From contig OZ244870.1 in the NCBI GenBank assembly GCA_965221205.1, positions 1,116,001 to 1,180,000 of the forward strand: a DNA stretch of 64,000 nucleotides, given 5' to 3'. This DNA is from CBDFMG01 sp965221205 [NCBI: bacterium]. Lineage in GTDB: Bacteria; SM23-31. Made by a program: the position numbers and the translations under genes. The notes under the pieces are model-generated. The model searched no databases. It had not been told where the DNA came from and saw only the letters and a list, made by a program, of their open reading frames with translations. This document shows positions 24,374 through 63,100 of this stretch, piece after piece; position 1 is the first letter of the stretch, and the number at the start of each line of letters is the position of its first letter.

Positions 24374-25909
24374 TTACCATGGCAATGGAGCAACACGAGG
24401 CAGTTTTTCATCCCGCATAGCTGCATGATATACGAATGTTGCAAGTATAACCGTATTTGCCATGAGGTCTTCGGGTACAAGACGGTCAAATACGTCCATG
24501 TTGGAGTGGTACCTGCGACCGTCCATTCTATCCTGTAGAAAATAATACCCCGGAAGTCCTACCTCATCATATGCCTCATGTGCCATTCCCGTAGAAAAAA
24601 GATGTCTCATTCCCAGGTTGTAAAGCGGCTTCATCCATTCGGTAAAGATTGACCGGGTCATTTCATTACCCATAATGTTCAGACCTTTTATTCTGGCAGC
24701 GCCGTTATCGATGTTAAAATATGCCGATAGATTATGATAATCTGGTTTATATTCCTTTTTAGCAAGGTTGGCAAAATTATTTCGGACATGACTCCGGTTG
24801 CCGTATAAACCCATTTCATGTCCACCCCAGAGTCCAATTCGTAGTGTTCTCCGCGGTTTGATACCGAGTGCCTTGAAGATACGAACTACTTCCATTGAAA
24901 CAATAGTACCGGCGCCATCATCAGTTGCACCTGTCCCGACGGGCTCCGACTGAAGATGTCCGCCTACTACAACTAATTCATCTGCCAGGTCTGTACCGGG
25001 AATCTCTGCGACAACATTATAATCATTCGGATCGTCTCTGGGGAAATCCACTTTAATATCAATTTCCAATTCCACTGGGATCCCTTTTTCAAGAATACGT
25101 ACAATCCTGTTGTAATGTTCCGCTGCCATAATAATCTCTCTGATGGGTGGCGGAGCATCCGTATTCCACATTTGATTTGTCATAGCATATCCCCCTACCG
25201 CAGTATCGACTGTGCCGAAATCATTTTTCCCATCCGTTCGGGCAACCATATAGGCACCTGCTGCGAACAACATGTCGATTTTCTGCTCCTGCGAAAGCCC
25301 GGCATTACGGCGTCTGCGCTCGCGAACAACAGGAGGGCCGACGGGAGTTTTCGCCATTTCGTCCAATTCTTCTTCGGTATATGGTTGTGTCATCGGCTCA
25401 AAGTGCGGTGTGATTACCTGTTTCGCCTGCATAAAAACAATTTTATCCCGAATAGTATTCCGGTATGTATCAAGGTCCGATTCGGTGTTAATTTCATCAA
25501 GATTAATATGTATTGCCTCTGCCTCTATTTTTCCGTCTGTTCCGGCAGACCAAGCAGCAGGATACGCTATGATAGGCATATATTGGGGGGCAATCATGTG
25601 GATGGATGTGTATAAATTTTCCCAGCCTACACCAAATTCGAACGGTTCCAGCCGCACATTTGAGAGTCCATACTCTTCCAGTTTTTCTTTCGCCCATTGT
25701 GCAGCAGCATTATAACCGGATGATTTCGAGTTCCGGGGCCCATACACATCAGTTATCCAGCTGGCATTCTCCATCACTTCAGAGCGTTCAAATGCTTCGT
25801 CCATGATCTTATCGACGACATCCCAGTGGACCGGTTCCTGTGCAAAGACAGTTGAAGTTACAGCAACTGTTAAAAACAATGCTACCATGTATCTGTAATA
25901 ATTACTCAT
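24374..25909 (-). CDS. Secreted M28-type protein, catalytic residues replaced (paralogue 1)
   Basis: 511 residues with a signal peptide ending near FAQ. The N-terminal region VVDKIMDEAF..S.VMENASWITDVYGPRN is that of secreted M28 peptidases. A PA-like insert fills about 110-260. The M28 core follows. Metal ligands are present: H318, D330, E365, D401, H468. The residue two after the first His is Gln (HLQ, not HxD), and the usual catalytic Glu before E365 is His364 (GGHEMG in place of GEEQG). Hydrolysis by the standard mechanism is therefore doubtful; zinc binding may persist. It is the last gene of a minus-strand series of related genes, ending AMRDEKLPRVAPLPW like its paralogues. Confidence 0.85.
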   Translation of the reverse strand: MSNYYRYMVALFLTVAVTSTVFAQEPVHWDVVDKIMDEAFERSEVMENASWITDVYGPRNSKSSGYNAAAQWAKEKLEEYGLSNVRLEPFEFGVGWENLYTSIHMIAPQYMPIIAYPAAWSAGTDGKIEAEAIHINLDEINTESDLDTYRNTIRDKIVFMQAKQVITPHFEPMTQPYTEEELDEMAKTPVGPPVVRERRRRNAGLSQEQKIDMLFAAGAYMVARTDGKNDFGTVDTAVGGYAMTNQMWNTDAPPPIREIIMAAEHYNRIVRILEKGIPVELEIDIKVDFPRDDPNDYNVVAEIPGTDLADELVVVGGHLQSEPVGTGATDDGAGTIVSMEVVRIFKALGIKPRRTLRIGLWGGHEMGLYGNRSHVRNNFANLAKKEYKPDYHNLSAYFNIDNGAARIKGLNIMGNEMTRSIFTEWMKPLYNLGMRHLFSTGMAHEAYDEVGLPGYYFLQDRMDGRRYHSNMDVFDRLVPEDLMANTVILATFVYHAAMRDEKLPRVAPLPW

Positions 25910-25941
25910 AATATTTCTCTCCTCTCAAGTTGAATATTTTC

Positions 25942-27567
25942 TTACCATAGTTTTTCAATTTCATCGGTGAGACCGGTCATCTCCCACCGCACTAACGACA
26001 TGGGGATCATTCCCAAAGCCCTGAAATCATCGACAAATTCACCAAGAACAAAATCATCACCACGGACTTTTGCTGCATCTTCTATCAAACTCATCATCTG
26101 TATTTTCCCGAGAACCATTCCCATATGCCAACCGGGAGCACGAAGTGTCGTCTTCATCTCAAACCAGACTTCATGACCTCCATCGATCATCCAGTTGTAT
26201 GGTGTTTCTTCGTAGCAAAACTGGAGCGCATCGGCCAGGTCAAATTCATTGTTATGCATTTTCAGATCGGCCAGACCACGCACAGCCCGGAAGGCTTTCG
26301 CGATTAAATTGACCTCCTCTCCACGTGGACGGTCTTCATAAATTCCGGAATGCAGAAAAATTTCTTCGAGTCCGAAAGCCATACCCTCATTCCGAATCAT
26401 ATCGATATCATAGAGCCTGGTGGTTCCCCGTATCGGTCGTCCGTCACGCTGATGTATTAATTCATCCAGATGGTGACCAAGGTTATTATGTGCCACTTCG
26501 GCAATCATATCACGGTCTCTGCACTGTTGAAAAAAGTCCTGTTTGTCTTCCGATCCAGGTGCATTCCACCATTCTCCCGGATTGTTCGTTGTCATATAGT
26601 CCGGTATGGTGAACAAACCTTCATCCTCGATGAATTGAAACATATACTGTTCATCATTTCGCCATCGCCGCTGGTACTCTTCAGGAGATGAAACTAACTG
26701 AAGGGGAGGCAGATTGCGGTTTCTGTGCTCAACAATTTTAAGCGCCCCGACTGAGTGTTCATATTCTCGCTCGAGGCTTGCGTACAGTTCATCCCAGGTA
26801 TAGGGAACAAGATGCACATTTTTGAGCCACCAGTTATAGTTTTCTTTTCCGATTCCCGCTGGAGTGGTCATTGAATTAATGTTCGCTTCGATCCATTTAC
26901 CGTAATCCTCCACTGCGGCAATTGCCAGTTCAATTTCTGAGAGCATTTCGGGATGGTGTTCCGTCAATTGTTTGCCGAGGTTTTCATACAGTTTTATTTC
27001 TCTTTCAAGAAAATGCAGAGCAATGAGAGCGAAATCCCCAGCTGCTTCGGTGAGATTCCCCTTTGCCTGTTCAAGCAGTTCAGGAGCAGCCCGAAGCTGT
27101 GCTCTGAAATTCGCAGCTTCTTCTTCAGACATTGGCAGTTCGGAAATTCTTGGTCTTCCATAAGCCGTCGGTCCGGCACCTCCCATAGAAAATAAGTAGA
27201 ATACAGGATCCCGCGACCACGGCCTGCGTATTGTATGGTCGAATTCCAGACCGTTCATTTCTGCACGCACTACGTGGTAATCCACTTGCTGCAAAACAGG
27301 CCAGTCACTTAAATTAATCGCCGCAAGTCGTTGCTGATATTCCTGTATTCTGCTGAACTGTTCCCTCAGTGCTGAAGCAGTGTAGTCGGGAACACTATTG
27401 ATTTCTTTCGGTCTCTCAAATTCTCGAAATTCCTGAAAAAGTGCAATGAGATCATCATATGAATTCAATTCTGTCATGTCGGTTCTGCTACTCTCCGAAG
27501 TACACGACACGAAGAGGAGGATAAAAAGATACATGCAAACTCGTATTTTCAAATAATGTCTGTTCAT
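25942..27567 (-). CDS. DUF885-type lipoprotein with altered metal motif
   Basis: The ATG at 27567 is preferred to one at 27588 because TTGGAG stands just before it. The product has a lipoprotein signal (LFILLFVSC) and the DUF885 layout: a long helical N-terminal part and then the region normally carrying HExxPGHH, here AHNNLGHHLDEL with the Glu absent and the spacing one shorter. EGMAFGLEEI corresponds to the EGWALYAE helix. The fold is recognisable but peptidase activity is doubtful, which parallels the M28 neighbours. It sits inside the M28 series, 32 bases from paralogue 1. Confidence 0.75.
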   Translation of the reverse strand: MNRHYLKIRVCMYLFILLFVSCTSESSRTDMTELNSYDDLIALFQEFREFERPKEINSVPDYTASALREQFSRIQEYQQRLAAINLSDWPVLQQVDYHVVRAEMNGLEFDHTIRRPWSRDPVFYLFSMGGAGPTAYGRPRISELPMSEEEAANFRAQLRAAPELLEQAKGNLTEAAGDFALIALHFLEREIKLYENLGKQLTEHHPEMLSEIELAIAAVEDYGKWIEANINSMTTPAGIGKENYNWWLKNVHLVPYTWDELYASLEREYEHSVGALKIVEHRNRNLPPLQLVSSPEEYQRRWRNDEQYMFQFIEDEGLFTIPDYMTTNNPGEWWNAPGSEDKQDFFQQCRDRDMIAEVAHNNLGHHLDELIHQRDGRPIRGTTRLYDIDMIRNEGMAFGLEEIFLHSGIYEDRPRGEEVNLIAKAFRAVRGLADLKMHNNEFDLADALQFCYEETPYNWMIDGGHEVWFEMKTTLRAPGWHMGMVLGKIQMMSLIEDAAKVRGDDFVLGEFVDDFRALGMIPMSLVRWEMTGLTDEIEKLW

Positions 27568-27625
27568 AATATTCTCCAAATATTTCATCGATTACTTCAC
27601 AGTTGAATAGTTTTATATGATTTCA

Positions 27626-29215
27626 CTACCACGGTAATTGAGCAACACGGGGAAGTTTTTCATCACGCATTGCAGCATGATACACAAACGTTGCAATAAT
27701 GGCAACATTGGTCATCGTGTTTTCCGGAATAGCGCGATCTAACATGTCCATATTAGTGTGGGCATTCGTTTCCATATCATTTCTATCCTGATAAAAATAA
27801 AATCCCGGCAATCCGACTTCAGCGTACGCTTCATGGTAACCAGGATTACCGCCGATAGGCATTCCGCCGGGTATCAGATGTGACATACCCAGGCTGTGTA
27901 ACGGCTTCATCCATTCGGTAAAAATTGACCGTATCTCTTCATTCCCCATGACCGATACAGCCCGTATCTTACCGGTTCCATGATCTGAATCAAAGTACGC
28001 TGAAAGATTATGATAATCCCTTTTATATTCTTTAGTAGTCGGATCCGCAAAGTTTTTGCGGACATGACTCCGGTTACCTGCTAATCCAGCGCCATCATGT
28101 CCACCCCAGAGTCCCATCCGAACGGTTCGCCGTGGTTTAAGCCCTAATTTTTTAAAAATCCGTGCAACTTCCATAGCAGAAGCTGCACCGACTGCGTTAT
28201 CAGTCGCACCGGTACCGACAGGCACAGACTGAAGGTGACCACCAAATACAACTATTTCATGCGGTAGATCAGTGCCGGGAATCTCGGCAATAACGTTATG
28301 GTCATTCGGATTACCCCTGAAAAAGTTTGTCCGGACTTCGATCTCCATTTCGACAGGAATTTCCTTATTCAATATTCGAATGATCCGGTTATATTGTTCC
28401 ACTGCCAAGACAAGCTCTGTAGGCTGTGGAAGTGCACCCTCTTTCCACAGTCCTGATGCTCTATCATATCTACTGAGCGCAACTGTTCCGAAATCATGTT
28501 GGCCGTCCGGGTGTGCAATAGCAACGGCACCCTCAGCAAATACAAAATCGATGATTTGTTGGCGCGTCAGTCTGTTTTCACTAAGATTGGGTCTCGTCCG
28601 CCCTTGTCTTTGTAATTCAATATCCAACACAGATATTTCCGGAGCAATGGGTATTTTCGCCATTGCATCGAGTTGCTCTTTTGTAAATATTGTTGCTATT
28701 GGTTCAAAATGGGGTGAGAGTTTGTGTTCCGGTCTTATAAATATGATTGTGTTCTTTAATTTTCCTCGGTATTGTTTCAAATCTGTTCCAGAAACAAGTT
28801 CGTCAAAGTTGATATACATGGCATTGGCCCGGATTTTTCCATCTGTTCCGGACGACCACGGAGCAGGATAGGCAATAAGCGGCATATACTGGGGAGCCAT
28901 CATGTGTACTGAGGTGTAACCAATATTCCAACCGGCACCGAATTCGTACGGCTCAAGTCTGGCATTCGTGAGACCATTCTCTTTGAGTCTGTCTCGAGCC
29001 CATTCCGCAGCCGCACGGTATGAAGGTGTCTTCACATTTCGAGGTCCGTATACATCAGCCAGCCAGCTGGCATTGTCCATAACTTGAGAATTATTAAAAG
29101 CTTCTTCCATTATTTTATCTACGACATCCCAATAGACCGGTTCCTGTGCGAAAGCTGATAACGTTAAGAGAACAATTAACAACATTACGACGATATTGTG
29201 ATAAAGAGTGCACAT
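27626..29215 (-). CDS. Secreted M28-type protein, catalytic residues replaced (paralogue 2)
   Basis: 529 residues with a signal peptide (…LSAFAQ). Ligand segments are GGHLQS, GATDN, GGHDGAGLAGNRSHV, YFDSDHG and AHTNMD. It differs from paralogue 1 in having His-Asp where the family has Glu-Glu, so the bridging ligand is Asp. An insertion (GGMPIGGNPGYHEAY) precedes the last domain part. It is strikingly close to the gene at 41866 (same length, same HD form and insertion), so those two share a recent ancestor. Expected in the periplasm or outside the cell. Confidence 0.85.
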   Translation of the reverse strand: MCTLYHNIVVMLLIVLLTLSAFAQEPVYWDVVDKIMEEAFNNSQVMDNASWLADVYGPRNVKTPSYRAAAEWARDRLKENGLTNARLEPYEFGAGWNIGYTSVHMMAPQYMPLIAYPAPWSSGTDGKIRANAMYINFDELVSGTDLKQYRGKLKNTIIFIRPEHKLSPHFEPIATIFTKEQLDAMAKIPIAPEISVLDIELQRQGRTRPNLSENRLTRQQIIDFVFAEGAVAIAHPDGQHDFGTVALSRYDRASGLWKEGALPQPTELVLAVEQYNRIIRILNKEIPVEMEIEVRTNFFRGNPNDHNVIAEIPGTDLPHEIVVFGGHLQSVPVGTGATDNAVGAASAMEVARIFKKLGLKPRRTVRMGLWGGHDGAGLAGNRSHVRKNFADPTTKEYKRDYHNLSAYFDSDHGTGKIRAVSVMGNEEIRSIFTEWMKPLHSLGMSHLIPGGMPIGGNPGYHEAYAEVGLPGFYFYQDRNDMETNAHTNMDMLDRAIPENTMTNVAIIATFVYHAAMRDEKLPRVAQLPW

Positions 29216-29248
29216 TGTATTCCTTATATTGTATGTTGAAGAGTTACT

Positions 29249-30799
29249 TTACCATGGCAGCGGTGCAACTCTGGGAAGTTTCTCATCACGCATAGCAGTA
29301 TGATACACAAACGATGTCAGGACAACTGAAGCTTGCATCAAGCCTTCCGGAACAAGCCTCTCATAGGTATCCATATTACTGTGTGAATTCATGTCGTCGA
29401 TCTCTTTTCGGTCATGGTCAAAATAAAAGCCCAGCAGACCGACTTCCCTGTATGCTTCATGTTGGCTTCCTGACGTAAACAGATGTGTCATACCCAAGTT
29501 TTTCAGCGGCTTCATCCACTCGGTAAATATTGATCTGAGAAGTTCATTTCCCATAATGGAAACACCCCGTATCCTGCCGGTTCCAATATCGATATTGTAA
29601 TATGCAGAGAGGTTATCATAATCCTTTTTGTATTTTTTCGTTACCGGATCAGCAAAGTTTTCCCGGACATGAGCACGGTTCCCGATCGTACCCATTTCAT
29701 GACCTCCCCAGAATCCTACTCGGATCGTTCGTCTTGGTTTGACTCCGATCGCCATAAGAGTTCGTGCTGCTTCAAGTGTAGCCACGACACCCGCACCATT
29801 ATCAATAGCACCCGTACCAGCAGGATTCGCCTGCAAGTGCCCCCCAAAAAGAACTATTTCATTCGCCAGGTCAGTACCGGGAATTTCTGCTATGACATTG
29901 AAATCGTTTGGACCATCACTGTTAAAAGAGACTCGCACTTCAAGTTCTATTTCAACAGGAATACCTTTTTCCAAAATTCGCATTATCCTGTTGTAGTGTT
30001 CAGCAATCATGATCAATTCTGTTGGATTCGGTTGCGCCCCCTGTTCCCATGGCCGTGTTTCCATCGTATATCGTCTATTCTCAACTCTGACAGATCCATA
30101 ACTGCTTTGTCCGTCTGTACGAACAATTGCCACTGCACCTTCACCAAACACAAAGTCGATAATCTGCTGTCTCGATAGCCTATCATCTTCCGACCTTCGA
30201 CCGCGGTGCACTTGTGTGACACGGGGTCCAACAGAAATTTTCGACATTTCATCAAGCTGTTCATCGGATAATCTCTCATTAAGCGGAGTAAATCTGTGTG
30301 TGATCTCCTGTTTCGGCGTGGTGAATATGATAGCGTTGTGCAGATTACCCCGATACTGTTCCAGATCAGATTCTGAAGCAATCTCATCGAAATTTACATA
30401 GACGATCGGGCCACGAACTTTTCCATTAGTACCCTCGGACCACAATGCGGGATATGCGACGATCTGCATGTACCGAGGGGACATCATGTGAACAGAAGTG
30501 TAGTTGTTATCCCAGCCAATACCAAATTCATACGGTTCCAAATGTGCGTTTGGAACACCATAATCATCCAATTTTTCTTTTACCCATTCAGCTGCAGCAA
30601 AATAACTTGGCGTTTTTGCGCCCCGCGGTCCAAAGACGTCGGTCAGCCAGCTGGCATTTTCCATGACTTCGTTATTTGCAAACGATTCATCCATAATCTT
30701 CTGCACAACATCGTAGTATACTTTTTCCTGTGCATTGGTGGAGACTGCTGCAATAAGCAGTATAATTAATCCAGCTACACATATACATTGAGCTTTCAT
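29249..30799 (-). CDS. Secreted M28-type protein, catalytic residues replaced (paralogue 3)
   Basis: 516 residues; signal peptide ends near TNAQ. Key segments are GGHLQANPAGTGAIDNGAG, GGHEMGTIGNRAHV, YYNIDIG and SHSNMD. As in the other copies, the HxD aspartate is Gln and the general-base Glu is His. AGGAGGTG lies upstream of the start. The 30-40 base spacing to neighbouring paralogues suggests one transcript. Confidence 0.85.
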   Translation of the reverse strand: MKAQCICVAGLIILLIAAVSTNAQEKVYYDVVQKIMDESFANNEVMENASWLTDVFGPRGAKTPSYFAAAEWVKEKLDDYGVPNAHLEPYEFGIGWDNNYTSVHMMSPRYMQIVAYPALWSEGTNGKVRGPIVYVNFDEIASESDLEQYRGNLHNAIIFTTPKQEITHRFTPLNERLSDEQLDEMSKISVGPRVTQVHRGRRSEDDRLSRQQIIDFVFGEGAVAIVRTDGQSSYGSVRVENRRYTMETRPWEQGAQPNPTELIMIAEHYNRIMRILEKGIPVEIELEVRVSFNSDGPNDFNVIAEIPGTDLANEIVLFGGHLQANPAGTGAIDNGAGVVATLEAARTLMAIGVKPRRTIRVGFWGGHEMGTIGNRAHVRENFADPVTKKYKKDYDNLSAYYNIDIGTGRIRGVSIMGNELLRSIFTEWMKPLKNLGMTHLFTSGSQHEAYREVGLLGFYFDHDRKEIDDMNSHSNMDTYERLVPEGLMQASVVLTSFVYHTAMRDEKLPRVAPLPW

Positions 30800-30841
30800 A
30801 GTACTATTTACACCTCCTGCTATAAAATCAAATGAAATTCC

Positions 30842-32404
30842 TTATCGTACCGGCATTGGTGCAATGCGGGGAAGTTTTTCATCACGCATTGCGGCATGGT
30901 ATGCTAAACTTGCCATGACAACTGCGGACTGCATCATGTCCTCCGGTATAAGGCGGTCATATACATCCATGTTGGTATGAGCGTTTCTGTTATCTAAATT
31001 AAATAATTCCTGCAGAAAGGAAAACCCTGGCAGACCGACTGCCGAAAACCTGCGATCTTCAGAGCCTACTACTTCCGGTATGAGATGGGTCATCCCGAGA
31101 CGATGCAGCGGTTTCAACCATTCGGTGAAGATAGAACGCACCTGTTCATTTCCCTGAAGAAAAATTCCGCGAAACCTACCGGTACCATGGTCGGTGTTAA
31201 AATAAACGGATAATTGAGAGTGCTCCGGTTTATATATCTGTGTTTCCGGATCACCGAAGTGGGCGAGTACATAATTCCGCGAACCGAAATTGCCCATCTC
31301 ATGCGCACCCCAGAGCCCAATGCGAATAGTCCGCCGGGGTTCCACTCCGATTGCTTTGAGAATTCGTAATGCTTCCATACAAACGGCAACACCGGCGACA
31401 TCATCTATTGCACCGGTACCGGCCGGATCAGCCTGAAGATGTGCTCCGAACATTGCCACCTCATTAGCAAGGTCTGTTCCCGGAAGCTCAGCAACGACAT
31501 TGTAATCAGTGAAATCGTCATCGATAAAATTCACCCGTATTTCAACTTCCATTTCAACGGGAATTCCTTTTTTCATTATTCTGAGTATCCGGTTATAATG
31601 CTCAGCTAGTACAACCAGCTCTGTAATAGGAGGAAGAGGATTCTTTTCCCATAAACGATTTTCCAGAGCATATCCTTCGACACCCGCATCGACAACACCA
31701 TATCCATTCGTTTGACCATCATGATGTGCAATTGCTAAAGCTCCCTCTGCAAACACAAAAGCGATTTTCTCATTGTTTGTCAGTCTGTTTTCGTCATCTA
31801 TGCGTCCTCGCCGTGCACCGGAATCGCCGGGGCCGATGTGGATTTTTGCCATTTCATCAAGCTGTTCCTCTGTAAATCTATCTGCTATGTGATCAAAATG
31901 GGGTGAGACACTCAGTTCCGGTGTAGTAAATACAATTTTGTTTATTAGTTTTCCACGGTATGGTTCAAGATCGGCTTTGGTATTGATCTCATCAAAGTTG
32001 ACAAAAATTACCGGTTCCCTGATTTTTCCATCTGTTCCGGCAGACCATGGAGCCGGATACGCTATCATCGGCATATACTGAGGTGACATCATATGCACCG
32101 ACGCATACTCTTTCTCCCAGCCTATACCGAACTCAAACGGTTCAAGAGCAACATTCGATAAGCCGAACTCCTCTAATCGATCTTTAGTCCAATCTGCGGC
32201 TGCACGATATGATGATGAATTTGCGTTCCGCGGCCCAAAAACATCGGTCAACCAGCTTGCAGTTTCCATAACACGCGAATTTTCGAAACCTTCAATTATG
32301 ATCTTATCGACAGCATTCCAGTACACTTTTTCTTGAGCAAATGCGGAATGTGCAGTGAGAAGAAGCAACAATAAACCTGTACTTACAGTGCGTTGTAACT
32401 TCAT
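30842..32404 (-). CDS. Secreted M28-type protein, catalytic residues replaced (paralogue 4)
   Basis: An open frame reaches 32509, but that would overlap the upstream gene and lack a signal peptide. The ATG at 32404 follows AGGGG and gives MKLQRTVSTGLLLLLLTAHS, a good signal, for 520 residues. The most diverged of the series: GAHLQADPAGTGAIDDVAG, GAHEMGNFGSRNYV, YFNTDHG, AHTNMD. The sequence before the last domain part (IPEVVGSEDRRF) lacks the HEAY segment seen in the other copies. Confidence 0.85.
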   Translation of the reverse strand: MKLQRTVSTGLLLLLLTAHSAFAQEKVYWNAVDKIIIEGFENSRVMETASWLTDVFGPRNANSSSYRAAADWTKDRLEEFGLSNVALEPFEFGIGWEKEYASVHMMSPQYMPMIAYPAPWSAGTDGKIREPVIFVNFDEINTKADLEPYRGKLINKIVFTTPELSVSPHFDHIADRFTEEQLDEMAKIHIGPGDSGARRGRIDDENRLTNNEKIAFVFAEGALAIAHHDGQTNGYGVVDAGVEGYALENRLWEKNPLPPITELVVLAEHYNRILRIMKKGIPVEMEVEIRVNFIDDDFTDYNVVAELPGTDLANEVAMFGAHLQADPAGTGAIDDVAGVAVCMEALRILKAIGVEPRRTIRIGLWGAHEMGNFGSRNYVLAHFGDPETQIYKPEHSQLSVYFNTDHGTGRFRGIFLQGNEQVRSIFTEWLKPLHRLGMTHLIPEVVGSEDRRFSAVGLPGFSFLQELFNLDNRNAHTNMDVYDRLIPEDMMQSAVVMASLAYHAAMRDEKLPRIAPMPVR

Positions 32405-32438
32405 TAGTACGCCCCTATAAATTATTTGATATAATATG

Positions 32439-33986
32439 TTACCAGGGTCTTGGTGCGAACCGGGGAAGTCTTTCATCACGCATGGCGGCGTGATATGCGA
32501 ACGTCGCAATTATGACAGCGTTTGCTATGAGATCTTCCTCTACAAGACGGTCATAGGCATCCATATTGGAATGGTATTGGCGGCTATCCATTCTGTCCTG
32601 TATAAAATAGTAACTCGGCAGGCCAACTGCATCATATGCTTCATGGACCATTCCATACGGGATAAGATGAGTCATGCCGAGATTATGGAGCGGCTTCATC
32701 CATTCTGTGAATATGGCACGAAGTCGTTCATTACCCTGAATAGGAACACCACGTATCCTGCCGCTGCCATGGTCGATATTAAAATATGCGGAAAGGTTAT
32801 CGTAATCTTTTTTGTATTCCTTTGTTTCCGGATCGGCAAAGTGTTTTCGAACATGAGCCCGGTTTCCGAATACACCCATTTCATGCCCGCCAAAGATAGC
32901 TATCCGTATAGTCCGGCGGGGTTGGATTCCGAGAGCCTTAAGAATACGTACAGCTTCCATGCAGACAACGACACCCGCAGCATCATCGGCAGCGCCGCCT
33001 CCAGCTGGGTTTGCCTGAAGATGCCCGCCCAAGAGAACAATTTCTTCTGCAAGGTCGGTACCCGGAATTTCGGCAACTACATTGTAATCTGTCAGGTCAT
33101 CCCGGTTAAATGAGACTTTTAGCTCAAGTTCAATCTCGACTGGAATATCTTTCTCCAGAATACGCATGATCCGATTATACTGTTCAGTTGACATAACCAG
33201 TTCGGTAGGAGGGGAGGGAGCGTCCACTTCCCACAATCTGTTATCTAGAGTATAACGGTTGTTCTCTACAGCAACAGTCCCGAAATCATTTCTACCGTCC
33301 ATCCGCACAATAGCTGCCGCGCCTTCGCCAAATACAAAATCGAGAATTTTCTGCCGTGAAAGCCTTTCCGGACGGGAACGCCTGTTTCGCTCATCTGTAA
33401 TCCGGGGACCGATAGGAATTTTCGCCATCTCATCGAGCTGTTCTTTGGTATAGCGTGTTGCGGGTGGATCAAAGTGAGGTGTTAATGTTCGTTTAGGTTC
33501 TGTTAAGACGACTGCATTGCGAAGTTTTCCACGGTATAGCCGGAGGTCTACTTCCGATGCTATATCTCCAAAATTAATGTAAACTGCCCGCCCTTTGACC
33601 TTGCCGTTGGTTCCGGCAGACCACGTCGCGGGATAAGCAATAATTGGCATGTACTGAGGAGACATCATATGGACCGAAATATATTCATTCACATAGCCAA
33701 CCCCGAACTCATACGGTTCCAACTCAGCATTCGATAACCCATATTCCTGTAACCGCTCTTTCACCCATTCAGCCGATGCAATGTATCCAGGTGATTTTGC
33801 ATTCCTCGGTGCAAATACATCCACAATCCAACTTGCATTCTCCATGACGTCGGAGTTTTTGAAAGCTTCATCCATGATCTTGTCGACAACATCCCAGTGG
33901 ACAGGTTCCTGTGCATGAACAGAAAACACTGACGTAAACAGCAACATTAATACTAATACTCCAGCGCAAATACATTTTGACTTCAT
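32439..33986 (-). CDS. Secreted M28-type protein, catalytic residues replaced (paralogue 5)
   Basis: The ATG at 33986 follows a strong GGAGGG; an upstream in-frame ATG at 34007 is less likely. The 515-residue product has a signal peptide (…VFSVHAQ) and GGHLQANPAGGGAADDAAG, FGGHEMGVFGNRAHV, YFNIDHG and YHSNMD. This is the first gene of the minus-strand series 33986 to 24374. The candidate promoter motif at 34012-34037 sits 25 bases upstream of it. Confidence 0.86.
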   Translation of the reverse strand: MKSKCICAGVLVLMLLFTSVFSVHAQEPVHWDVVDKIMDEAFKNSDVMENASWIVDVFAPRNAKSPGYIASAEWVKERLQEYGLSNAELEPYEFGVGYVNEYISVHMMSPQYMPIIAYPATWSAGTNGKVKGRAVYINFGDIASEVDLRLYRGKLRNAVVLTEPKRTLTPHFDPPATRYTKEQLDEMAKIPIGPRITDERNRRSRPERLSRQKILDFVFGEGAAAIVRMDGRNDFGTVAVENNRYTLDNRLWEVDAPSPPTELVMSTEQYNRIMRILEKDIPVEIELELKVSFNRDDLTDYNVVAEIPGTDLAEEIVLLGGHLQANPAGGGAADDAAGVVVCMEAVRILKALGIQPRRTIRIAIFGGHEMGVFGNRAHVRKHFADPETKEYKKDYDNLSAYFNIDHGSGRIRGVPIQGNERLRAIFTEWMKPLHNLGMTHLIPYGMVHEAYDAVGLPSYYFIQDRMDSRQYHSNMDAYDRLVEEDLIANAVIIATFAYHAAMRDERLPRFAPRPW

Positions 33987-34011
33987 AGAAAAACCCTCCT
34001 GAAACAATGTA

Positions 34012-34367: not shown

Positions 34368-34918
34368 ATGGAAACATCATGGTTTTTTTCGTGGATAGTT
34401 GTACCATTTTTGATTGTTATTACTCGTGTTCTCGATGTGTCGTTTGGTACGCTGCGTATCATATACTTAGCACAGCGACGCAAAATAATTGTTCCGATAC
34501 TCGGATTTGTAGAAGTATTAATATGGCTTATTGTAATCAGCCAGGTCATGCAAAACCTGACGAATCCGGTCTACTATATTGCCTATGCTTTGGGATTTGT
34601 CATCGGCAATTACATCGGGATCAGTCTTGAGGAAATGCTTGCAATAGGCAATCTCATGGTCAGAGTCGTGACACGGATCGACGATACGAGATTGATTACC
34701 ACGCTCCGGAACCACAACTACAAGGTAACAATTGTCGACGCAGAGGGATTGATGGGACCGGTAAAAATCCTCTTCACTAATCATCCGTTGAAAAGACAAA
34801 GACGGAGTCCTCTGAAGAAGTGCAGAAAGCGCAGGAAGACGGCATATCACGGAATGGTCTCCGCTCGAAACAGCGCTATTACCGCTGGACCTTCTTCCGC
34901 CGCCGTAAGGGGAAGTAG
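34368..34918 (+). pseudogene. UPF0316 (DUF5698/DUF2179) membrane protein, internal loss
   Basis: From the ATG at 34368, three membrane helices of the DUF5698 part are clear (ITRVLDVSFGTLRII, PILGFVEVLIWLIVISQVMQNL, YALGFVIGNYIGISLEE). The DUF2179 domain starts (YKVTIVDAEGLMGPVKILFT) and then breaks off: about 35 residues of the domain are missing. The plausible C-terminal tail (KTKTESSEEVQKAQEDG to a basic FFRRRKGK end at 34918) is in another frame. The open frame itself runs on as low-quality sequence to 34943. Function of the family is unknown; this copy is probably inactive. Confidence 0.68.
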
Positions 34919-35158
34919 GGATGCGTATCTTTATCTTCTTTAATAATCAGATTGAGATTAAATTAGGCGATTGATTTCCAACGGGAAGTCCCAGTTTATC
35001 CAGATAGTTCACACCAATGTGTTTGAGGTCACGTTCTGCTATAAATCTGCGATACAGTCCAGTCGGCAAAGATTATAATAGCGTCCTCTATAAGGATTGC
35101 CCTATGCTGGTGCCGAATTTCTCTCTTATCAAGATTTGAACGTAGTGTTGATTATAAT

Positions 35159-36040
35159 CTACTCTACATCCTTCACACATCGAAAACCGGTATCTGCATA
35201 AGTGTTCGACTGAACATCGCTCGTGCGCCTTGAGCAGCGCATCAATCCCGGTCTTCCGTCCCAGGAGTTACCGCGCATCACCTTTCGTTCATTTGGAACA
35301 TCGTTTATAGGATTCTTTTTCGGGCTCCTGCTGTAGTATTCTGCATCGAAGTAGTCGGCACACCATTCCCAGGCATTACCGGACATGTCGTACAACCCAA
35401 AAGAGTTGGGCACAAAGGAACCAACGGGAGCGGTGAAAATGTATCCGTCATCATATCCTTCGGTATAGGACCATGTGACGACCTTTATCAGATTTTCGTC
35501 GGCAACATTGGCCACGACCTCCTGCCCCAAGGGTTCGTTGCCCCACGCGTATCTGTAGCCTTTTGCCCCACCTCGGGCGGCGTATTCCCATTCGGCCTCG
35601 GTGGGCAAGCGTTTTCCAGCCCATTGGGCATATGCATCTGCATCGTTCCAACTCAGGTTCGTCACCGGATGATTGTTTTTCTCTGTTTGATGCAGATTAC
35701 CCATCTGGTCGAACCTCCAGTTAATCTCCGGGCTCTTCTCCCAGCCGTCCCCTTCCCATACATAACCACCATCATTTTTTTCGGCATCAGTGACATAGTT
35801 TGTGGCATCCACAAATTCACTAAATTCTTCTAAAGTGACTTCATGGATATCCATATAAAACGCATCTAATTCCACTTCATGAACCGGTTTCTCCATGTCC
35901 TGCCCGTTGGCGTCACCCATCATAAACGATCCGGCGGGAATTAAAACCATACCGGAATGTGTTGTTTGTGATGTCTGACAATTGAGAATGAGAACCAGTG
36001 CCATGATACCTATCAACGCAACTGAAAAGAGTGTTTTCAT
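35159..36040 (-). CDS. SUMF1/FGE-fold lipoprotein
   Basis: 293 residues with a lipoprotein signal (VLILNC). The FGE-sulfatase domain is complete: VLIPAGSFMMGD, MDIHEVTLEEFSEF, HPVTNLSWNDADAYAQWAGKRLPTEAEWEYAARGG, NSFGLYDMSGNAWEWCADY, VMRGNSW and GFRC. Only one of the two active-site cysteines of formylglycine-generating enzymes is present (MRCSRRT); the partner is replaced. It is therefore more likely a sugar/ligand-binding or structural member than a sulfatase-activating enzyme. No sulfatase gene is nearby. Confidence 0.88.
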   Translation of the reverse strand: MKTLFSVALIGIMALVLILNCQTSQTTHSGMVLIPAGSFMMGDANGQDMEKPVHEVELDAFYMDIHEVTLEEFSEFVDATNYVTDAEKNDGGYVWEGDGWEKSPEINWRFDQMGNLHQTEKNNHPVTNLSWNDADAYAQWAGKRLPTEAEWEYAARGGAKGYRYAWGNEPLGQEVVANVADENLIKVVTWSYTEGYDDGYIFTAPVGSFVPNSFGLYDMSGNAWEWCADYFDAEYYSRSPKKNPINDVPNERKVMRGNSWDGRPGLMRCSRRTSDVQSNTYADTGFRCVKDVE

Positions 36041-36215
36041 TGTTGTATCTCCTCAATGATTAATATGAAATACGATTAGCTATATATTAACCGCTCTAAT
36101 GTCATCCAGTAATTCTTCAGTGAATGGTCTGAATTTCTGTGCATCTGATATACTTATTGTGAATTAGTCCAGGATTAAGAAAGAAAAAATCTGTTATTGT
36201 TGATTAGAGCGAAGA

Positions 36216-36640
36216 CTAATCGAGAGAAATGAATATACAATTTGAAATAGTTAAGTCAGGAAATGTAAATATTGAATACACCAAGGTAATGAAATCCGAT
36301 CGCGTTATTGGCTCAATTTTTTGTTTCGCGAGCACTTTCGGTGGCGATTTGTGCCCATTTCTAGAGCAAACTGTTATTGTCCACCACTTCTTCGGGAGAA
36401 CTTCGAAGTACGGCATTTTACCGTGCTGCGAAGACCCTGCATTAGTGAAATCCTGATGGTTTTTGTCACCGACTTTAAAGAATAACTTTGCCTTCGAATT
36501 TACCAGTGCGAACATGAGGCTGTTCTCGAAAATACCGTAGCCGCCGAACATCTTCTTATTCGTTACTGCACCAAGTGGTGCAAGAATATCAACAACGTGT
36601 CAGCACAGACTACCCGCTTCCTCAGTTAGTTTATTACCTT
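36216..36640 (-). pseudogene. TfoX N-terminal domain protein, interrupted
   Basis: Residues VVDILAPLGAVTNKKMFGGYGIFENSLMFALV and LFFKVGDKNHQDF match the TfoX/Sxy N-terminal fold. The natural N-terminal segment (GIKGNKLTEEAGSLC) is in the same frame but ends at a TGA near 36598. Translation could restart at the MFGGYG ATG (36551), losing the first helix. The C-terminal 50 residues do not look like the family, which suggests a second lesion near 36390. Small stand-alone TfoX-N proteins are common and of unclear role; this one is probably broken. Confidence 0.6.
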
Positions 36641-37073
36641 TTATTCCCAAATCAACATTTCTCCTTAAATTAAATACACCCAAAATTTAGTAGTGATATT
36701 GTATGTTTGGTATGTACGAGCCTCATCCTAAGCTAATAACCGACTCGTAAGATAAACAAAAATAAATTTTAATCAAATATTTAATCATGTTTTAGATGTT
36801 TTATACATTCCTCCCAAACCGTTCTTTACAATGTGTAAAAAACAGTATTGGAAAAGGAATTCTTTTCTTATTCTTGTTGTTGTAAAAGCTTAGAAAGAAT
36901 ATATCAATAACGGGTAATAAAAAAATTCCTTAAAAAGATAGTTGAATCTCTTAGATTTTAATTACGTTGGCTGATGTTTTCTGACAATATACAATCAGCA
37001 TAAGAAAAAACTTGGAAATTGTTAAATATTTATAAAAATTAATGATTCCAAAAATGCATTTATAAGGCGCACA
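36641..37073. other. AT-rich intergenic region before cfa
   Basis: No ORF or RNA gene is convincing. At 36974-36998 a stretch GATGTTTTCTGACAATATAC loosely recalls the recurrent motif seen at 54342, but the spacing differs by two bases. Confidence 0.35.
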
Positions 37074-38180
37074 ATGAAAAATAAAGTTGTAGACTTCCTT
37101 GCACATGCCGGAATTTGTGTGAACGGCAGAGATCCTTGGGATATTGTTATTCGAAACGAATCATTCTATACGAGAGTGCTGGCGAGCGGTTCGCTGGCAT
37201 TAGGTGAATCATATATGGATGGTTGGTGGGATTGCGATGCTATCGACAAATTTTTTCATAAAATTTCCTTAGCCAGACTCAATCTAAAGATCACTGATAA
37301 GAAACGGTATTTATTTACTTATCTCAAAGCTAAGGCGCTGAATTTTCAGCGTAAATCAAAAGCATTTCATAGTGGGCAATTCCATTATGATATTGGGAAT
37401 GGCCTCTTTTCCAAGATGCTTGGTGAAAGGATGATTTATAGCTGTGCCTATTGGGTGGGAGCTAAGAGTCTTGATGAAGCACAAGAAGCAAAACTGGAAC
37501 TCATTTGTAAAAAACTCGGTCTGGAGTCGGGGATGAAAATTCTCGACATCGGCTGCGGATGGGGAGGATTAGCTCGCTATGCAGCCAGCAAATACGGAGT
37601 GCATGTCACAGGAGTAACGGTGTCTGAAAAACAAAAAGCTATGGGAGAAGAAAAGTGTGCTGGTCTTCCGGTTGAGTTACTTTACAAAGATTATCGGGAT
37701 ATAAACGGCACATTTGACCGGATCGTATCAGTTGGAATGTTCGAACATGTCGGATACAAAAATTACAGAACATTCATGAAAATTACCAAACAGCTTCTTA
37801 AACCGGACGGCCTTTTTCTTCTGCATACTATAGGCGGGAATTTATCTGATCCGTCTAATGATCCCTAGACGAACAGGTATATATTTCCTAATTCAAAAAT
37901 ACCATCATTGCAGGAAATCACCAAAGCAATTGAAGGTCTTTTTATTACAGAAGATTTGCATAATATTGGCGTTCATTATGATAAAACCCTAATGGCCTGG
38001 TATAAAAATTTTAAAGATAACGGGGATTCACTTAAAAATAAGTACGATGAACGCTTTAAACGCATGTGGTCATATTACCTGTTGAGCTGTGCAGGGGCTT
38101 TTTGGGCTCGACATAATCATGTATGGCAATTAGTGCTTTCTCACGATGGCATACCGGGAGGTTATACTAGCTTTCGATGA
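37074..38180 (+). pseudogene. cfa: Cyclopropane-fatty-acyl-phospholipid synthase with in-frame TAG
   Basis: The N-terminal part has GSLALGESYMDGWWDC, typical of Cfa. The AdoMet motif MKILDIGCGWGGLARYAA and the MFEHVGYKNY segment follow. At 37866-37868 an in-frame TAG interrupts NDP*TNRYIFPN, exactly where the family has a conserved Trp (DPW), so a single TGG to TAG change explains it. Downstream the same frame stays open and conserved (EDLHNIGVHYDKTLMAWYKNF, ERFKRMWSYYLLSCAGAFWARHNHVWQLV) to 38180. The enzyme would add a methylene to membrane lipid double bonds using AdoMet. As it stands, the product is cut at 264 of about 368 residues. Confidence 0.82.
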
Positions 38181-38207
38181 AATACGTAAATATTTCAAAG
38201 CTTTATA

Positions 38208-39538
38208 TTATCGTACCAGAGCAATTTGTTCCGTTGAGGGAATGAACCATTTGATTCCATCTTCGGTCAAAAGCACGTTCTCTTCAAAATCCATCACCAT
38301 TTTTCTGCCGCCCCATTCGGGCATTGGATAGTAAACGAAGAATTCAAGAGAATGGAGCTGGTTAAGTTTAAGTACAAGGTTGCTGCAATATGGCTGCTCT
38401 TCATCGATCCAAACGGCAGGTCCGAATCCGTGGCCCTGCTCTCCGACAGTATGTCATCCAATATTGATCTCAATATTTTGGCTGTCTGAAACGTAGTCTT
38501 CGAGACGACAGATCTCATATCCAAGTTCTCGCAGTTTATCATATATAACATTCAGTGTCTCAAGCCCTGTACGGCCCGGTTTTGTGAGTTTATGTGACAA
38601 TTCCCGCACTTTCAACCTATGATCCCAGATTTTTTGTATTGTCTCCGGTATTCCGGTTTCTCCTTCACGGAGCACATATGCCCACCGTTCGATGTCGGTG
38701 CTATAATCGCCCATTATTTGGCTTATCCCAGCCAACAAGGTCTCCCCGTTGGATGACTAAATCTCGTGGTCCTCGAGTTGGTGTTCTGACAAGCGGGTTG
38801 CCGTCGTTGTCTGTCGGCATATGCGTAGTATATCCACGGGCTATCAATTGATCCGCCATCCAAAAGCTCAAGTCGCCCAATGTCGTCACTCCCGATACAA
38901 TAACCTCCATTGAATAAAGCTCTCTCAACTAGCTCTCTGGTTAATTCTATCGACTTTCTGAATAGTGAAATTTCACTTCCTACTTTGATCGAACGAAAGT
39001 CGCTGACGAGATCCTCCGACGAGACAAGCCGTGCCGCATATTTCTCACCGAGAGTCTTGAGGAGAGCCAAATAATTGGTATGGGAAAGCCCATCAGCAGT
39101 TCCAAGATTGGCGGGCATATTGACCGCAATGTTTTTTGGATCGCGCTCTTCAACGAACTTCCTCAAATTTTCTGTCACTCCAAAGATGTCGTAAAGCTTG
39201 GGACTGCCGCCGGTACCTAAGGCAGCTCGTTCGATTCTGTCACCGCCGCGGTGGGCAAACACTAAATAAGCCAGATTTTCTCCAAGATACCACTTATCCG
39301 AAGCGCCGCCGCCAACGTCTGAAGCAAGAAGCGGGTCAAGACGCTTATACTTCTGCACTATAATCAACATGTCGATGTTATTTTCCCACATCGCTTTGGG
39401 CAGCACAATATCGAGCTTTTCCATGCGAATCAGATTCTTCATTTCCCAGCGGGCTTTTGCTTCCTGAGCGTGAGCAGGGTATCCTTGGACAAAGAAAAGA
39501 CCAGAAAATAGCATGAGTAATGGCCATGATTTACGCAT
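38208..39538 (-). pseudogene. M24-like secreted protein, frameshifted
   Basis: A signal peptide (LLMLFSGLFFVQGYPAHAQ) and LDIVLPKAMWENNIDMLIIV open the gene in one frame, extending through DRIERAALG, RKFVEERDPKNIAVNMP and LVSSEDLVSDFRS. Near 38930 the match moves to another frame (GVTTLGDLSFWMADQLIARG), then to a third (YVLREGETGIPETIQ), and ends with VGEQGHGFGPAVW and an IPSTEQIALVR end at 38208. A truncated head might still be made. Same family as 51332 and 52797. The M24 fold is that of methionine/Xaa-Pro aminopeptidases. Confidence 0.78.
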
Positions 39539-39540
39539 AA

Positions 39541-39780
39541 AATGTTTGTATTGGATTTGCTTTACTATTTATTCTAACGTGTAGCTCTTTGTGGCCAATG
39601 CGCTTTTTGATCACACTTCGATGGTAAGTACGACTCGGAAACTTTGCAATAAATATCACAAAAACCTTGAGCAATTACAAGTAATATATCCGGTTTTAAG
39701 ACAAAGTATTTCTCTACGCCGCTCAATGCTTAGAGTATACAGTTTCACCAGTCGAGTTTTCTTTAAACTATTCCCAGAAA
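39541..39780. other. Intergenic region, nothing recognised
   Basis: About 240 bases between the M24-like remnant and the symporter, AT-rich, without a supported ORF. Confidence 0.35.
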
Positions 39781-41532
39781 CTACCATACAAACAATAATT
39801 TTGTTACAAACCAGGTAGTGAAAACAAGTAAAAAACATGCTCCGACTATTTTTATAAAACCTGGAAAGTACCATTTTAAATTTGGTTCGTTGCGAAGCTC
39901 AATTGTGCTATCCGTTCCAAATATTTTATCTTTGCTATCCTCTGCATATATTTTTTCCACCTCAGTCACGCTCATTTCTTCCTGACCATCAGACATAAGA
40001 CCTGCGTCAATTAAAGCGGGCAATTTGATTCCTGCATTAACCAGCCGCTCTTCACGTCCAACCGGTGTGTTTAATATAACGTGGAAACGTTTAACCTTGA
40101 GGGCATCGGCTGGTTTTCCGATCAAAGTCCCAACGACCATACAAAATAACGCCACACTAGTAGAAATGAACACCGTCTGCTCAAATGCCGGATTAATTGC
40201 ATCAACAAACCCCAAATTCGACTGAATCATATTGGTGACCACAACCGATATATAGGTAACGATCCCACCACTTAATGAAAGCCACATACCGGTGCAATTG
40301 GCTCGCTGCCAGATCACTCCGAAATAGATTGATATTCCAAGAAACGAAAGCAGCGTTAATGTCAGCTTTACATAGTCTTCAATCGATGAAAGGTTGTGTG
40401 TCGAAAGCGCCGCAATAATTATTGAGATTACTGCCCAAATACGTGCAACGTTGAGATAATGTTTCAGTTTTTTGCCAGGCCGAATTGTCTTCCTGTAGAG
40501 GTAATCTACTCCGATTGCGGAAGAGGTTGTGGCAAAGGTGTCCGCTGAAGACATTGCCGCAGCAAAAAAACTTGCAACAAGGAGTCCCAAAACACCAACC
40601 GGTAATATTTCCCCCATGACAATACCCCAGGCTAACTCAGGGTCATCCAGTCCGGGCCGATAAATTGCGAATAGAATACCATAGATAGCAAACAACAACG
40701 TGATTAATCGTTTCCAGAGATGTCCCCATGCACATTGGGTCGCGGCTTTTTCGTTCTTTGAAACCGAGATCCAGTTAAATATCCATGGTGCTGCAATGCC
40801 GCCAACGAGAGCAGAGAGATTTAGCGCTAGCACAGTCCAGATGGTCATCCGTTCTGGGTCAACTAAATTCCAGATTTCAGGATGAGCAGCACTGTAATTC
40901 ATCAAGGAATTCCAGCCTCCTGCATTGATCCATAAAAATGGCAACATAATGAAACTCAGAACAAAAAGACACATTAATCCCTGAAGAATGTCGGTCAATA
41001 ACGCAGACATCATCCCTCCGGAAAATACATATGAACCAACAATGACAGTGATAATCCAGACACAATGCTGTGGTTGTAAAGTGGTCAACCCGGCCAATAC
41101 TTTTGCTATGGCTAACAGAATCATCCCAATAAATAAAATGCAGATGATCGTTGCAACAACTGAATACAGTGAGGAGACATATCTGTCGTATCGCATCTCA
41201 AGAAACTCAGATATGTTATAGACCCTCGACCTGCGGAAATAAGTGGAAAATAAGTAATAAATAGGAGTTGCAAAAAGGAAACTCCACCAGTACCAGACCC
41301 CAGAAAGTCCGCTTTTATAGGCCTGTCCTCCTACGACAACTGCCTCGTTACCCGCAATCGCTGAAGCGAAGACGAAAATAAAGGACACAAGAGCACCCCA
41401 TTTACCACCTGCTACAAAAAAGTCACCCAGGCTCTTAGTTCGTTTTACTCCTTGAAAAATGCCAATGTATAGTACAATACCGAAATATACTATAACTATA
41501 GTAAAATCAAACCAATGTATGCCCAGTATCAT
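39781..41532 (-). CDS. Sodium:solute symporter (SSS family)
   Basis: 583 residues with about 13-14 predicted membrane helices. SSS hallmarks include the N-terminal TIVIVYFGIVLYIGIFQG, DFFVAGGKWG, ASAIAGNEAVVVGGQAYKSG, FFAAAMSSADTFATTSSAIGVDYLYR (the Na2-site region), and a long cytoplasmic tail before a final helix. It would import a solute (sugar, amino acid or organic acid) with Na+. Unlike its broken neighbours it is intact, so it is presumably still in use. Confidence 0.9.
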   Translation of the reverse strand: MILGIHWFDFTIVIVYFGIVLYIGIFQGVKRTKSLGDFFVAGGKWGALVSFIFVFASAIAGNEAVVVGGQAYKSGLSGVWYWWSFLFATPIYYLFSTYFRRSRVYNISEFLEMRYDRYVSSLYSVVATIICILFIGMILLAIAKVLAGLTTLQPQHCVWIITVIVGSYVFSGGMMSALLTDILQGLMCLFVLSFIMLPFLWINAGGWNSLMNYSAAHPEIWNLVDPERMTIWTVLALNLSALVGGIAAPWIFNWISVSKNEKAATQCAWGHLWKRLITLLFAIYGILFAIYRPGLDDPELAWGIVMGEILPVGVLGLLVASFFAAAMSSADTFATTSSAIGVDYLYRKTIRPGKKLKHYLNVARIWAVISIIIAALSTHNLSSIEDYVKLTLTLLSFLGISIYFGVIWQRANCTGMWLSLSGGIVTYISVVVTNMIQSNLGFVDAINPAFEQTVFISTSVALFCMVVGTLIGKPADALKVKRFHVILNTPVGREERLVNAGIKLPALIDAGLMSDGQEEMSVTEVEKIYAEDSKDKIFGTDSTIELRNEPNLKWYFPGFIKIVGACFLLVFTTWFVTKLLFVW

Positions 41533-41865
41533 ATCAAGTCTTCACTATTTTTATATCATTCATTCAATACAATATGTGAATCTAAATTTAGAGATTTGTT
41601 CCTTTTCCAATTCTGTAAGTAAATTTATCCGGAAATAATTTCTATTATCTGATATTCCCTATATCAGTATTCTGAAAGAGATTGACATGGATTTTATTGT
41701 AAAATAATGCTTTTTCAATATATGATGTACTTGGTTAGATGGTTTTGAAAGGTATGATTTAAATATTAAGTATGGCTACTACAAGTACATTTAACCTCTC
41801 GGACAAGAACGATTTTGAACCTTTTCTATAGTGATCTAATACCCTTCATTACCTTTATCGCTACA
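41533..41865. other. Intergenic region, nothing recognised
   Basis: AT-rich spacer between the symporter start and the end of the next M28 gene. It should hold the symporter promoter. I see no distinctive element. Confidence 0.35.
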
Positions 41866-43455
41866 TTACCACGGCAAAGGAGCGACACGGGGGAGTTTTT
41901 CATCACGCATTGCCGCATGATAGACAAACGATGCAAGGATGACCACATTTGTCATCGTGTTTTTAGGAACAAGACGGTCAAACATATCCATATTAGTGTG
42001 GGCATTCGTTTCCATATCTAATCTGTCCTGATAAAAATAAAAACCCGGCAGTCCAACTTCAGCATACGCATCATGGTAGCCCATATTGCCACCGATAGAC
42101 ATTCCGCCAGGAATCAGATGTGCCATTCCCAAGCTATGTAACGGTTTCATCCACTCGGTAAAAATTGACCGAATCTCTTCATTACCCATGACAGATACAG
42201 CCCGTATCTTACCGGTACCATGATCCACATTAAAGTATGCAGATAGATTATGATAATCCTTTCTGTATTCCTTTGTCGTCGGATCGGCAAAGTTTTTCCG
42301 GACATGACTCCGGTTACCCGCTAATTCTGCTCCATCATGACCACCCCAGAAGCCAACACGAATGGACCGTCGGGGTTGAAGGCCTAATTTTTTGAAGATA
42401 CGCGCAACTTCCATTGCAGTAGCTACACCGGCTGCATTATCAGTTGCGCCGGTACCCACAGGTACAGATTGAAGATGACCGCCGAATACAACTATTTCAT
42501 GGGCCAAATCAGTACCAGGGATCTCGGCAACAACATTATGGTCGTTTGGATCACCTCTGAAAAAGTTTGTTCTGATTTCGATCTCCATTTCGACAGGAAT
42601 GCCCTTATTTAGTATCCGAATGATCCGGTTATATTGTTCCACTGCCAAGACAAGTTCCGTGGGCTGGGGCGGCGCATCCTCTTTCCACAGTCCCGATGCT
42701 CTATCGTATCTACTGACTGCAACGGTTCCGAAATCATGTCGGCCGTCCGGGTGTGCAATTGCAACAGCACCTTCGGCAAATACAAAATCGATAATTTGCT
42801 GGCTCGTAAGTCTGCTTTCACCGGGATTGGGCCTTGTACGCTCCTGTCGGCGCAAATACAGATACAGAACTGAGACTTTGGGAGTTATGGGGATTTTCGC
42901 CATCTCGTCAAGCTGCTTTTCCTTGAATTTCGTCGCTATTGGTTCAAAACGGGGTGAGAGTTTCTGTTCTGGCCTTATGAAAATGATAGCATTTCGTAAT
43001 TTCCCCTGGTATTGTTTCAGATTTGCTTCTGTAGCAAGTTCGTCAAAATTCATATAAATAGCATGTGCCCGGATCTTTCCACTTGTTCCGAACGACCATG
43101 GTGCAGGATAGGCAATAACCGGCATATATTGGGGGGCTATCATGTGTACTGAGGTGTATCCAATATTCCAACCGACACCGAATTCATATGGTTCAAGTCT
43201 GGCATTTGTGAGGCCATACTCCTTGAGCTGGTCTCTCGCCCATTCTGCAGCTGCACGATACGATGGTGTCTTTACATTTCGCGGTCCAAATACATCGGCC
43301 AGCCAACTGACATTCTCAATGACCTGAGAATTTTCAAACGCCTCTTCCATTATCCTCTCAACAACATCCCAGTAGATCGGTTCCTGCGCCGGTGCAGAAG
43401 ATACAAACGCAAGCAATATCAATAAACCTATCAAACAAATATATTTAGCTTTCAT
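41866..43455 (-). CDS. Secreted M28-type protein, catalytic residues replaced (paralogue 6)
   Basis: 529 residues; signal peptide …VSSAPAQ; TAGGAG ribosome site. Segments GGHLQSVPVGTGATDNAAG, FWGGHDGAELAGNRSHV, YFNVDHG and AHTNMD. It is the closest relative of paralogue 2 (27626): same length, same His-Asp form, same insertion with GGMSIGGNMGYHDAY. It lies about 8 kb away from the main series and alone, which implies a dispersed duplication or loss of the sequence between. One of the few intact genes in this decayed part. Confidence 0.86.
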   Translation of the reverse strand: MKAKYICLIGLLILLAFVSSAPAQEPIYWDVVERIMEEAFENSQVIENVSWLADVFGPRNVKTPSYRAAAEWARDQLKEYGLTNARLEPYEFGVGWNIGYTSVHMIAPQYMPVIAYPAPWSFGTSGKIRAHAIYMNFDELATEANLKQYQGKLRNAIIFIRPEQKLSPRFEPIATKFKEKQLDEMAKIPITPKVSVLYLYLRRQERTRPNPGESRLTSQQIIDFVFAEGAVAIAHPDGRHDFGTVAVSRYDRASGLWKEDAPPQPTELVLAVEQYNRIIRILNKGIPVEMEIEIRTNFFRGDPNDHNVVAEIPGTDLAHEIVVFGGHLQSVPVGTGATDNAAGVATAMEVARIFKKLGLQPRRSIRVGFWGGHDGAELAGNRSHVRKNFADPTTKEYRKDYHNLSAYFNVDHGTGKIRAVSVMGNEEIRSIFTEWMKPLHSLGMAHLIPGGMSIGGNMGYHDAYAEVGLPGFYFYQDRLDMETNAHTNMDMFDRLVPKNTMTNVVILASFVYHAAMRDEKLPRVAPLPW

Positions 43456-63079: not shown

Positions 63080-63100
63080 AACTCAATCAGGAATTACACA

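Follow-up and report, generated by a model that had tools for sequence, protein, structure and literature searches.

M28 peptidase homologues with histidine at the general-base position form a single clade with a rewritten catalytic centre

What becomes of a peptidase when its general base is replaced in every complete copy of a multi-copy set? This question is raised by a 64,000-nucleotide stretch of contig OZ244870.1 (assembly GCA_965221205.1), hereafter called the window, in which six complete proteins of the M28 metallopeptidase family carry a Gln and a His where acidic catalytic residues are expected. Their genes, all on the minus strand, are located at 24374..25909 (paralogue 1, whose residue numbering we use throughout), 27626..29215, 29249..30799, 30842..32404, 32439..34007 and 41866..43455. 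All six match Pfam Peptidase_M28 (PF04389) with E values of 1.7e-21 (paralogue 1) to 2.2e-18 and scores of 67-77 bits against a cut-off of 21.3, and their frames are intact. The 41866 and 27626 copies are 82% identical. The initial annotation of the window had counted six complete copies, which was confirmed; in addition, the N-terminal part of a seventh paralogue (62945..64000, plus strand, 53-61% identity to the six) is interrupted by the window end before its catalytic motifs.

Alignment of the six copies showed that Q320 and H364 are invariant, as are H318, D330, D401 and H468, with HLQ in place of HxD and G[GA]H[ED] in place of EE. As initially proposed, the five metal-ligand positions are kept, but the residue at 365 is Glu in four copies (E365 in paralogue 1) and Asp in the other two. 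The GGHE or GGHD signature described at first holds in five copies (GGHE in paralogue 1 and in the 29249 and 32439 copies), whereas the 30842 paralogue harbours GAHE, and both GGHD copies (27626 and 41866) have a one-residue insertion after the motif. The clan MH motif is given in an excerpt of PMC7804941 as HXD + D + XEE + D/E + H; relative to canonical M28 enzymes, the base Glu is His in 6/6 copies and the Asp of HxD is Gln in 6/6. That these are the catalytic positions, as had been supposed, is confirmed by a phmmer search with residues 300-385 of paralogue 1, which aligned HLQ over HLD of 3iib, 1cp7 and 1amp, and GGHE over AAEE of 1amp, the Vibrio/Aeromonas aminopeptidase. Counting along this alignment, the 1amp counterparts are H97, D99, E151 and E152, and H364 falls on Glu151.

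A scan of genome contigs returned five loci, L001 (HLD/GVHE), L002 (HLD/GGEE, 44% identity to paralogue 1), L005 (HLD/GAEE, 40% identity), and L003 and L004 (both HLQ/GGHE). L001 belongs to G001, an Aminicenantes metagenome-assembled genome (MAG), and when 396 genomes of its phylum were searched with a profile, 187 of them had a family member with an E value of 1e-90 or lower; as no more than three candidates were scored per genome, some copies may have escaped detection. With an E value cut-off of 1e-150, 4 of the 94 genomes in the order of G001 had the His type (G001, G166, G566 and G567), as did 2 of the 9 in that of G048 (G048 and G094). Motifs were read in the six window copies, in the returned loci and in 80 more of the top-listed matches of the 396-genome search, yielding 132 rows after removal of the incomplete seventh paralogue and of same-gene copies, including L024, the tail of which is identical to L019 of another genome. 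Positions 320/364/365 read D/E/E in 115 rows, Q/H/E in 9, Q/H/D in 6, D/H/E in 1 (L001) and E/H/E in 1 (L012, genome G048). His is therefore present in 17/132 rows, partnered at position 320 by Gln in 15, Asp in 1 and Glu in 1. H318, D330, D401 and H468 are identical in 132/132 rows, and the five ligand positions are kept in 17/17 His-type rows, with Asp at 365 in 6; one of these rows, L049, is cut by a contig end. The HxD and EE signatures that the initial annotation attributed to relatives are indeed present in 115/115 members outside of the His clade, and because all of these are canonical at 320, 364 and 365, the substitution pattern goes beyond chance. Among the papers listed on related topics, none dealt with natural Glu-to-His M28 proteins, although no search was aimed at exactly that.

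We built a maximum-likelihood tree of 52 rows without an outgroup, excluding the HLQ and GGH columns. The 17 His rows are on one side of a single branch (100/99; 100% of 200 bootstrap trees), with the canonical L002 as the sister lineage. The most parsimonious history on this tree comprises one change at 364 and three at 320, and the spread of Glu in M28 suggests that it is ancestral at 364. L001, which has His with the Asp kept, is near the base of the clade, with a weak exact placement (81/32), and it is likely that the Glu-to-His replacement preceded the change at 320. L001 also indicates that the changes at 320 and 364 are separable, as does L012 with its combination of His and Glu. Thus, the double change originally described is fixed in one clade, but its two parts do not necessarily go together.

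The view that these proteins are intact and selected also stood, given their open frames and the ratios of nonsynonymous to synonymous substitution rates (dN/dS). Eight pairs were tried, two of which gave no value. Three pairs had a dS <1 and NG86 ratios of 0.088, 0.125 and 0.139 (0.112-0.184 with YN00). In three others, whose dS values of 1.8, 2.0 and 4.6 approach or exceed saturation, NG86 gave 0.086, 0.166 and 0.060. The His clade is under purifying selection. H364 is invariant across its 17 rows, which share 46-93% pairwise identity, and this counts for function since no such constancy would be required of a dead site.

The modifications are not limited to two residues, as the initial annotation had it. 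In the canonical rows, the loop that precedes the last ligand reads G[ST]DH, with Asp in 115/115 rows, Thr in 110, Ser in 4 and His in 113. This motif is common to SGAP, 2ek8 and 6hc6, and partly to 3iib (GGPD). The Asp of [ST]DH is present in 0/17 His-type rows; 14 of them retain the motif's His. Their commonest loop is GMxHEAY, with GSED in L001 and in the 30842 paralogue. Other conserved residues are also replaced, namely Gln456 (114/115 canonical rows) by Tyr in 14/17 His rows, Ser371 (111/115) by Asn in 14/17 and Tyr374 (113/115) by His in 15/17. Judging from their spacing, residues 371 and 374 would be on the same helix face as 364, the helix spanning residues 366-378 in a weak model. 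Conversely, D226, W248, E258 and H436 are fixed in the His clade and rare outside. As a control, we used a canonical sister clade of 17 rows, in which 8 of 63 conserved columns were lost, compared with 9 of 61 in the His clade. Of the control-clade changes, six are conservative (two of I to L and one each of G to A, E to Q, E to D and F to Y). The other two are non-conservative, with Gln replacing P453 in 11 rows and Trp replacing G403, which is two residues away from the ligand D401, in 17/17. None affects D320, E364, T442, D443 or Q456. The number of lost columns in the His clade is therefore ordinary, and a change near the active site is not unique to it; what is distinctive is the loss of three otherwise invariant carboxylates.

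Two of the His-type copies come from genomes labelled Dehalococcoidia (L003, genome G002) and Alphaproteobacteria (L004, genome G003). A comparison with 60 relatives of G002 gave no match other than G002 itself. In 96 relatives of G003, matches were limited to G003 and G425, the copy of G425 being canonical. At 1e-120, the matches were G002 and G802 of 301 genomes in one phylum, the G802 copy (L088) being canonical, and G003 of 299 in the other. The placement of L003 and L004 is likely to reflect misbinning or gene transfer. Of note, the two MAGs (L066 and L067) have a common syntenic block of closely similar genes around the His-type M28 gene, with several M24-like copies.

In the window, five of the M28-like genes form a minus-strand run (24374-34007), the last two of which flank a gene for a DUF885 protein (PF05960; 25942..27588, minus strand); an aldo/keto reductase gene (23212..24285, minus strand) follows. 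Successive genes are separated by 32-42 bases (32 and 37 around the DUF885 gene), followed by a gap of 88 bases before the reductase. Judging from these coordinates, the run and the reductase look like one predicted operon. The N-termini of the M28 copies are hydrophobic and end in AQE-type sites in the alignment, features that, assessed by eye, suggest that the proteins are secreted. The open reading frame (ORF) of the 30842 gene extends to 32509, and we set its start at the ATG (32404) that precedes the signal-like peptide; the 32439 gene has a TTG start in the ORF list and an in-frame ATG a few codons inside.

The DUF885 protein has HNNLGHH where most relatives have HExxGH. The HE glutamate is kept in 17/23 rows and missing in the window copy, L078, L083, L084, L086 and L087. 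The absence noted at first in the window copy is thus real, but it does not look like a loss linked to that of the M28 base. The five other Glu-less relatives carry differing letters, compared without a DUF885 tree, and the His-type genomes G001, G048 and G166 each have at least one DUF885 protein with HE among the copies read.

M24-like genes are found near His-type copies in L044, L062, L066 and L067, those of L062 and L067 being so labelled by alignment. Pfam M24 is matched by the L003 copy, on the same contig as L066, but not by L044 or the window piece. The latter, an N-terminal piece (38723..39538, minus strand), was identified by alignment to relatives, one of which matches Pfam M24. 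The gene it belongs to is spread over three frames within 37600-39600 and is broken or mis-sequenced. Other genes close to His-type copies code for an M14 carboxypeptidase (L003) and for an S15 peptidase and a DUF885 protein (L043). At lower window coordinates, 20454-21653 and 21881-23080 encode a duplicated, lipoprotein-like pair without Pfam match, which harbours DNDEDG and WEE[IT]LHLLTRHGWG stretches; on reading the sequences, relatives of these proteins were recognized near His-type genes in L043 and L064. ORFs of at least 150 residues are sparse between 44000 and 60000 relative to the rest of the window, perhaps denoting a decayed or small-gene region. An HMGL-like protein of the window reaches at most 63% identity among the matches listed from the 396 genomes of the phylum of G001. 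As for a viral origin, viral contigs were scanned once, with one protein as the query, and gave no match.

The His-type proteins are thus a real M28 variant that forms one clade, is subject to selection and has had its catalytic centre rewritten, a pattern pointing to an enzyme re-engineered by nature rather than merely broken. Our preferred reading, to which we assign a probability of about 0.48, is that they are secreted M28-fold metal hydrolases whose centre was rebuilt around an intact metal site, with His as the base and a remodelled substrate site. H364 would stand in for the general-base Glu and take the proton from the metal-bound water, a part that this substitution also seems to play in an engineered model aminopeptidase. 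Gln320 would replace the Asp that partners the metal-ligand His and might thereby tune the relay. In PfTET3, also of clan MH, His63 is hydrogen-bonded to both Asp65 and the base Glu207, according to an excerpt of PMC4745047, and in this light it is reasonable that positions 320 and 364 should change together. If homologues behave as PfTET3 does, D320, H318 and E364 would constitute one relay, which here would be mostly Gln-His-His. Replacement of the [ST]DH loop, mostly by GMxHEAY or similar sequences, would make the site less acidic, and it would probably hold a different substrate. The peptidase-like genes (M24-like, M14, S15 and DUF885) near several His-type genes also favour a hydrolase.

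Is a His base plausible in this fold? The engineered protein in question is 2anp, which we take to be the PDB entry of Bzymek et al. 2005. That article appears in the reference list of PMC3426542 under a title announcing a 'functional E151H aminopeptidase'. As far as a title can tell, inactivity of the His clade does not follow from its His, and neither does the new role that the initial annotation suggested. In the M28 enzyme AaaA, the E147A variant, altered at the residue matched to the SGAP base E131, retains 46% activity, which its authors credit to a neighbouring Glu (PMC3426542, in part), indicating that the base Glu is not always indispensable. Several observations weigh against it. With the [ST]DH Asp lost as well, the His clade exceeds what 2anp tests, and the GCPII base-Glu mutants E424A and E424M are titled 'inactive' in the PDB. 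The E151H aminopeptidase is reportedly ~2000-fold slower than the wild type. As 92 of 516 columns are invariant in the 17 His rows, H364 among them, its invariance is unexceptional. Finally, the AlphaFold model, built from 11 sequences, has a mean predicted local distance difference test (pLDDT) score of 60.1, with values <50 at residues 319-328, 362-370, 441-446 and 461-471; owing to this poor active-site confidence, it was used for fold matching only. A bolder reading, which we put forward tentatively, is that of a natural M28-fold enzyme class in which His-centred acid-base chemistry took the place of the Glu-centred kind, stepwise (Glu to His, then Asp to Gln with the loop), and which is directed to a substrate or reaction foreign to M28 peptidases.

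Alternatively, the proteins might be metal-dependent pseudopeptidases that bind zinc and a peptide or another ligand without cleaving it, and serve for binding or capture outside the cell. The His-type proteins lack three carboxylates that none of the 115 canonical rows varies, and base-Glu substitutions inactivate GCPII according to the PDB titles. The fold matches include transferrin receptor, an M28 relative without catalytic activity. Pseudoenzymes occur in several metallopeptidase families, and fungal Ecm14, with Lys in place of Glu, shows no activity, as reported in an excerpt of PMC11266112. However, His occupies the base position in every case, with no assortment of inert residues there, all 17 rows keep the ligand positions, and 2anp is cited as functional, at least by title. 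We consider this alternative unlikely.

Next in plausibility, and also doubtful, is that the M28 di-metal site catalyses another reaction, such as non-peptide amide or ester cleavage, transfer or cyclisation, the family also including glutaminyl cyclases. His would then serve in acid-base catalysis or activate a nucleophile, and a new substrate pocket would be formed by the remodelled [ST]DH loop. The concerted replacement of D320, E364, T442/D443, Q456, S371 and Y374 and the clade-specific D226, W248, E258 and H436 are compatible with such a shift, but several neighbours are peptidase-like. It is very improbable that redundant paralogues drifted under relaxed constraint once their function was lost, since the multi-copy arrays, the altered or broken DUF885 and M24 neighbours and a lost-column count similar to that of the control clade, which includes G403 to Trp in 17/17 rows, are outweighed by the low dN/dS in pairs with usable silent sites, the six intact frames, the fixed ligands and control-clade losses that spare D320, E364, T442, D443 and Q456.

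Where secreted peptidases have expanded, an 'M28 peptidase' annotation can conceal a changed catalytic centre. With the natural His clade, the engineered 2anp, the canonical sister L002 and the intermediate L001, the change of catalytic base is directly testable. Among known systems, 2anp, the E151H aminopeptidase of Vibrio (Aeromonas) proteolyticus, is similar to the His clade in having His at the base position, its AAHE aligning over GGHE exactly at H364, and differs from it in that it is an engineered single change with HLD kept. His is the only letter that distinguishes 2anp from 1amp in the printed stretch, and the respective phmmer scores are 39.8 and 36.1 bits. The best solved relative is 3iib, an M28 protein of Shewanella amazonensis (sequence E value 5.5e-26, the N-terminal part aligning weakly), which is also the best fold match (E 1.4e-21, template modelling score 0.50-0.57, with the weak model as the query). 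Unlike the Gln-bearing His-type proteins, which have none of these three acids, it keeps those of HLD, AEE and GGPD. Canonical relatives such as L002, L005 and L015 belong to the same full-length family, but all 115 have HxD and EE. A natural His at the counterpart of Glu151 is found in the M55 D-aminopeptidase DppA, which has like metal ligands but a different fold and clan.
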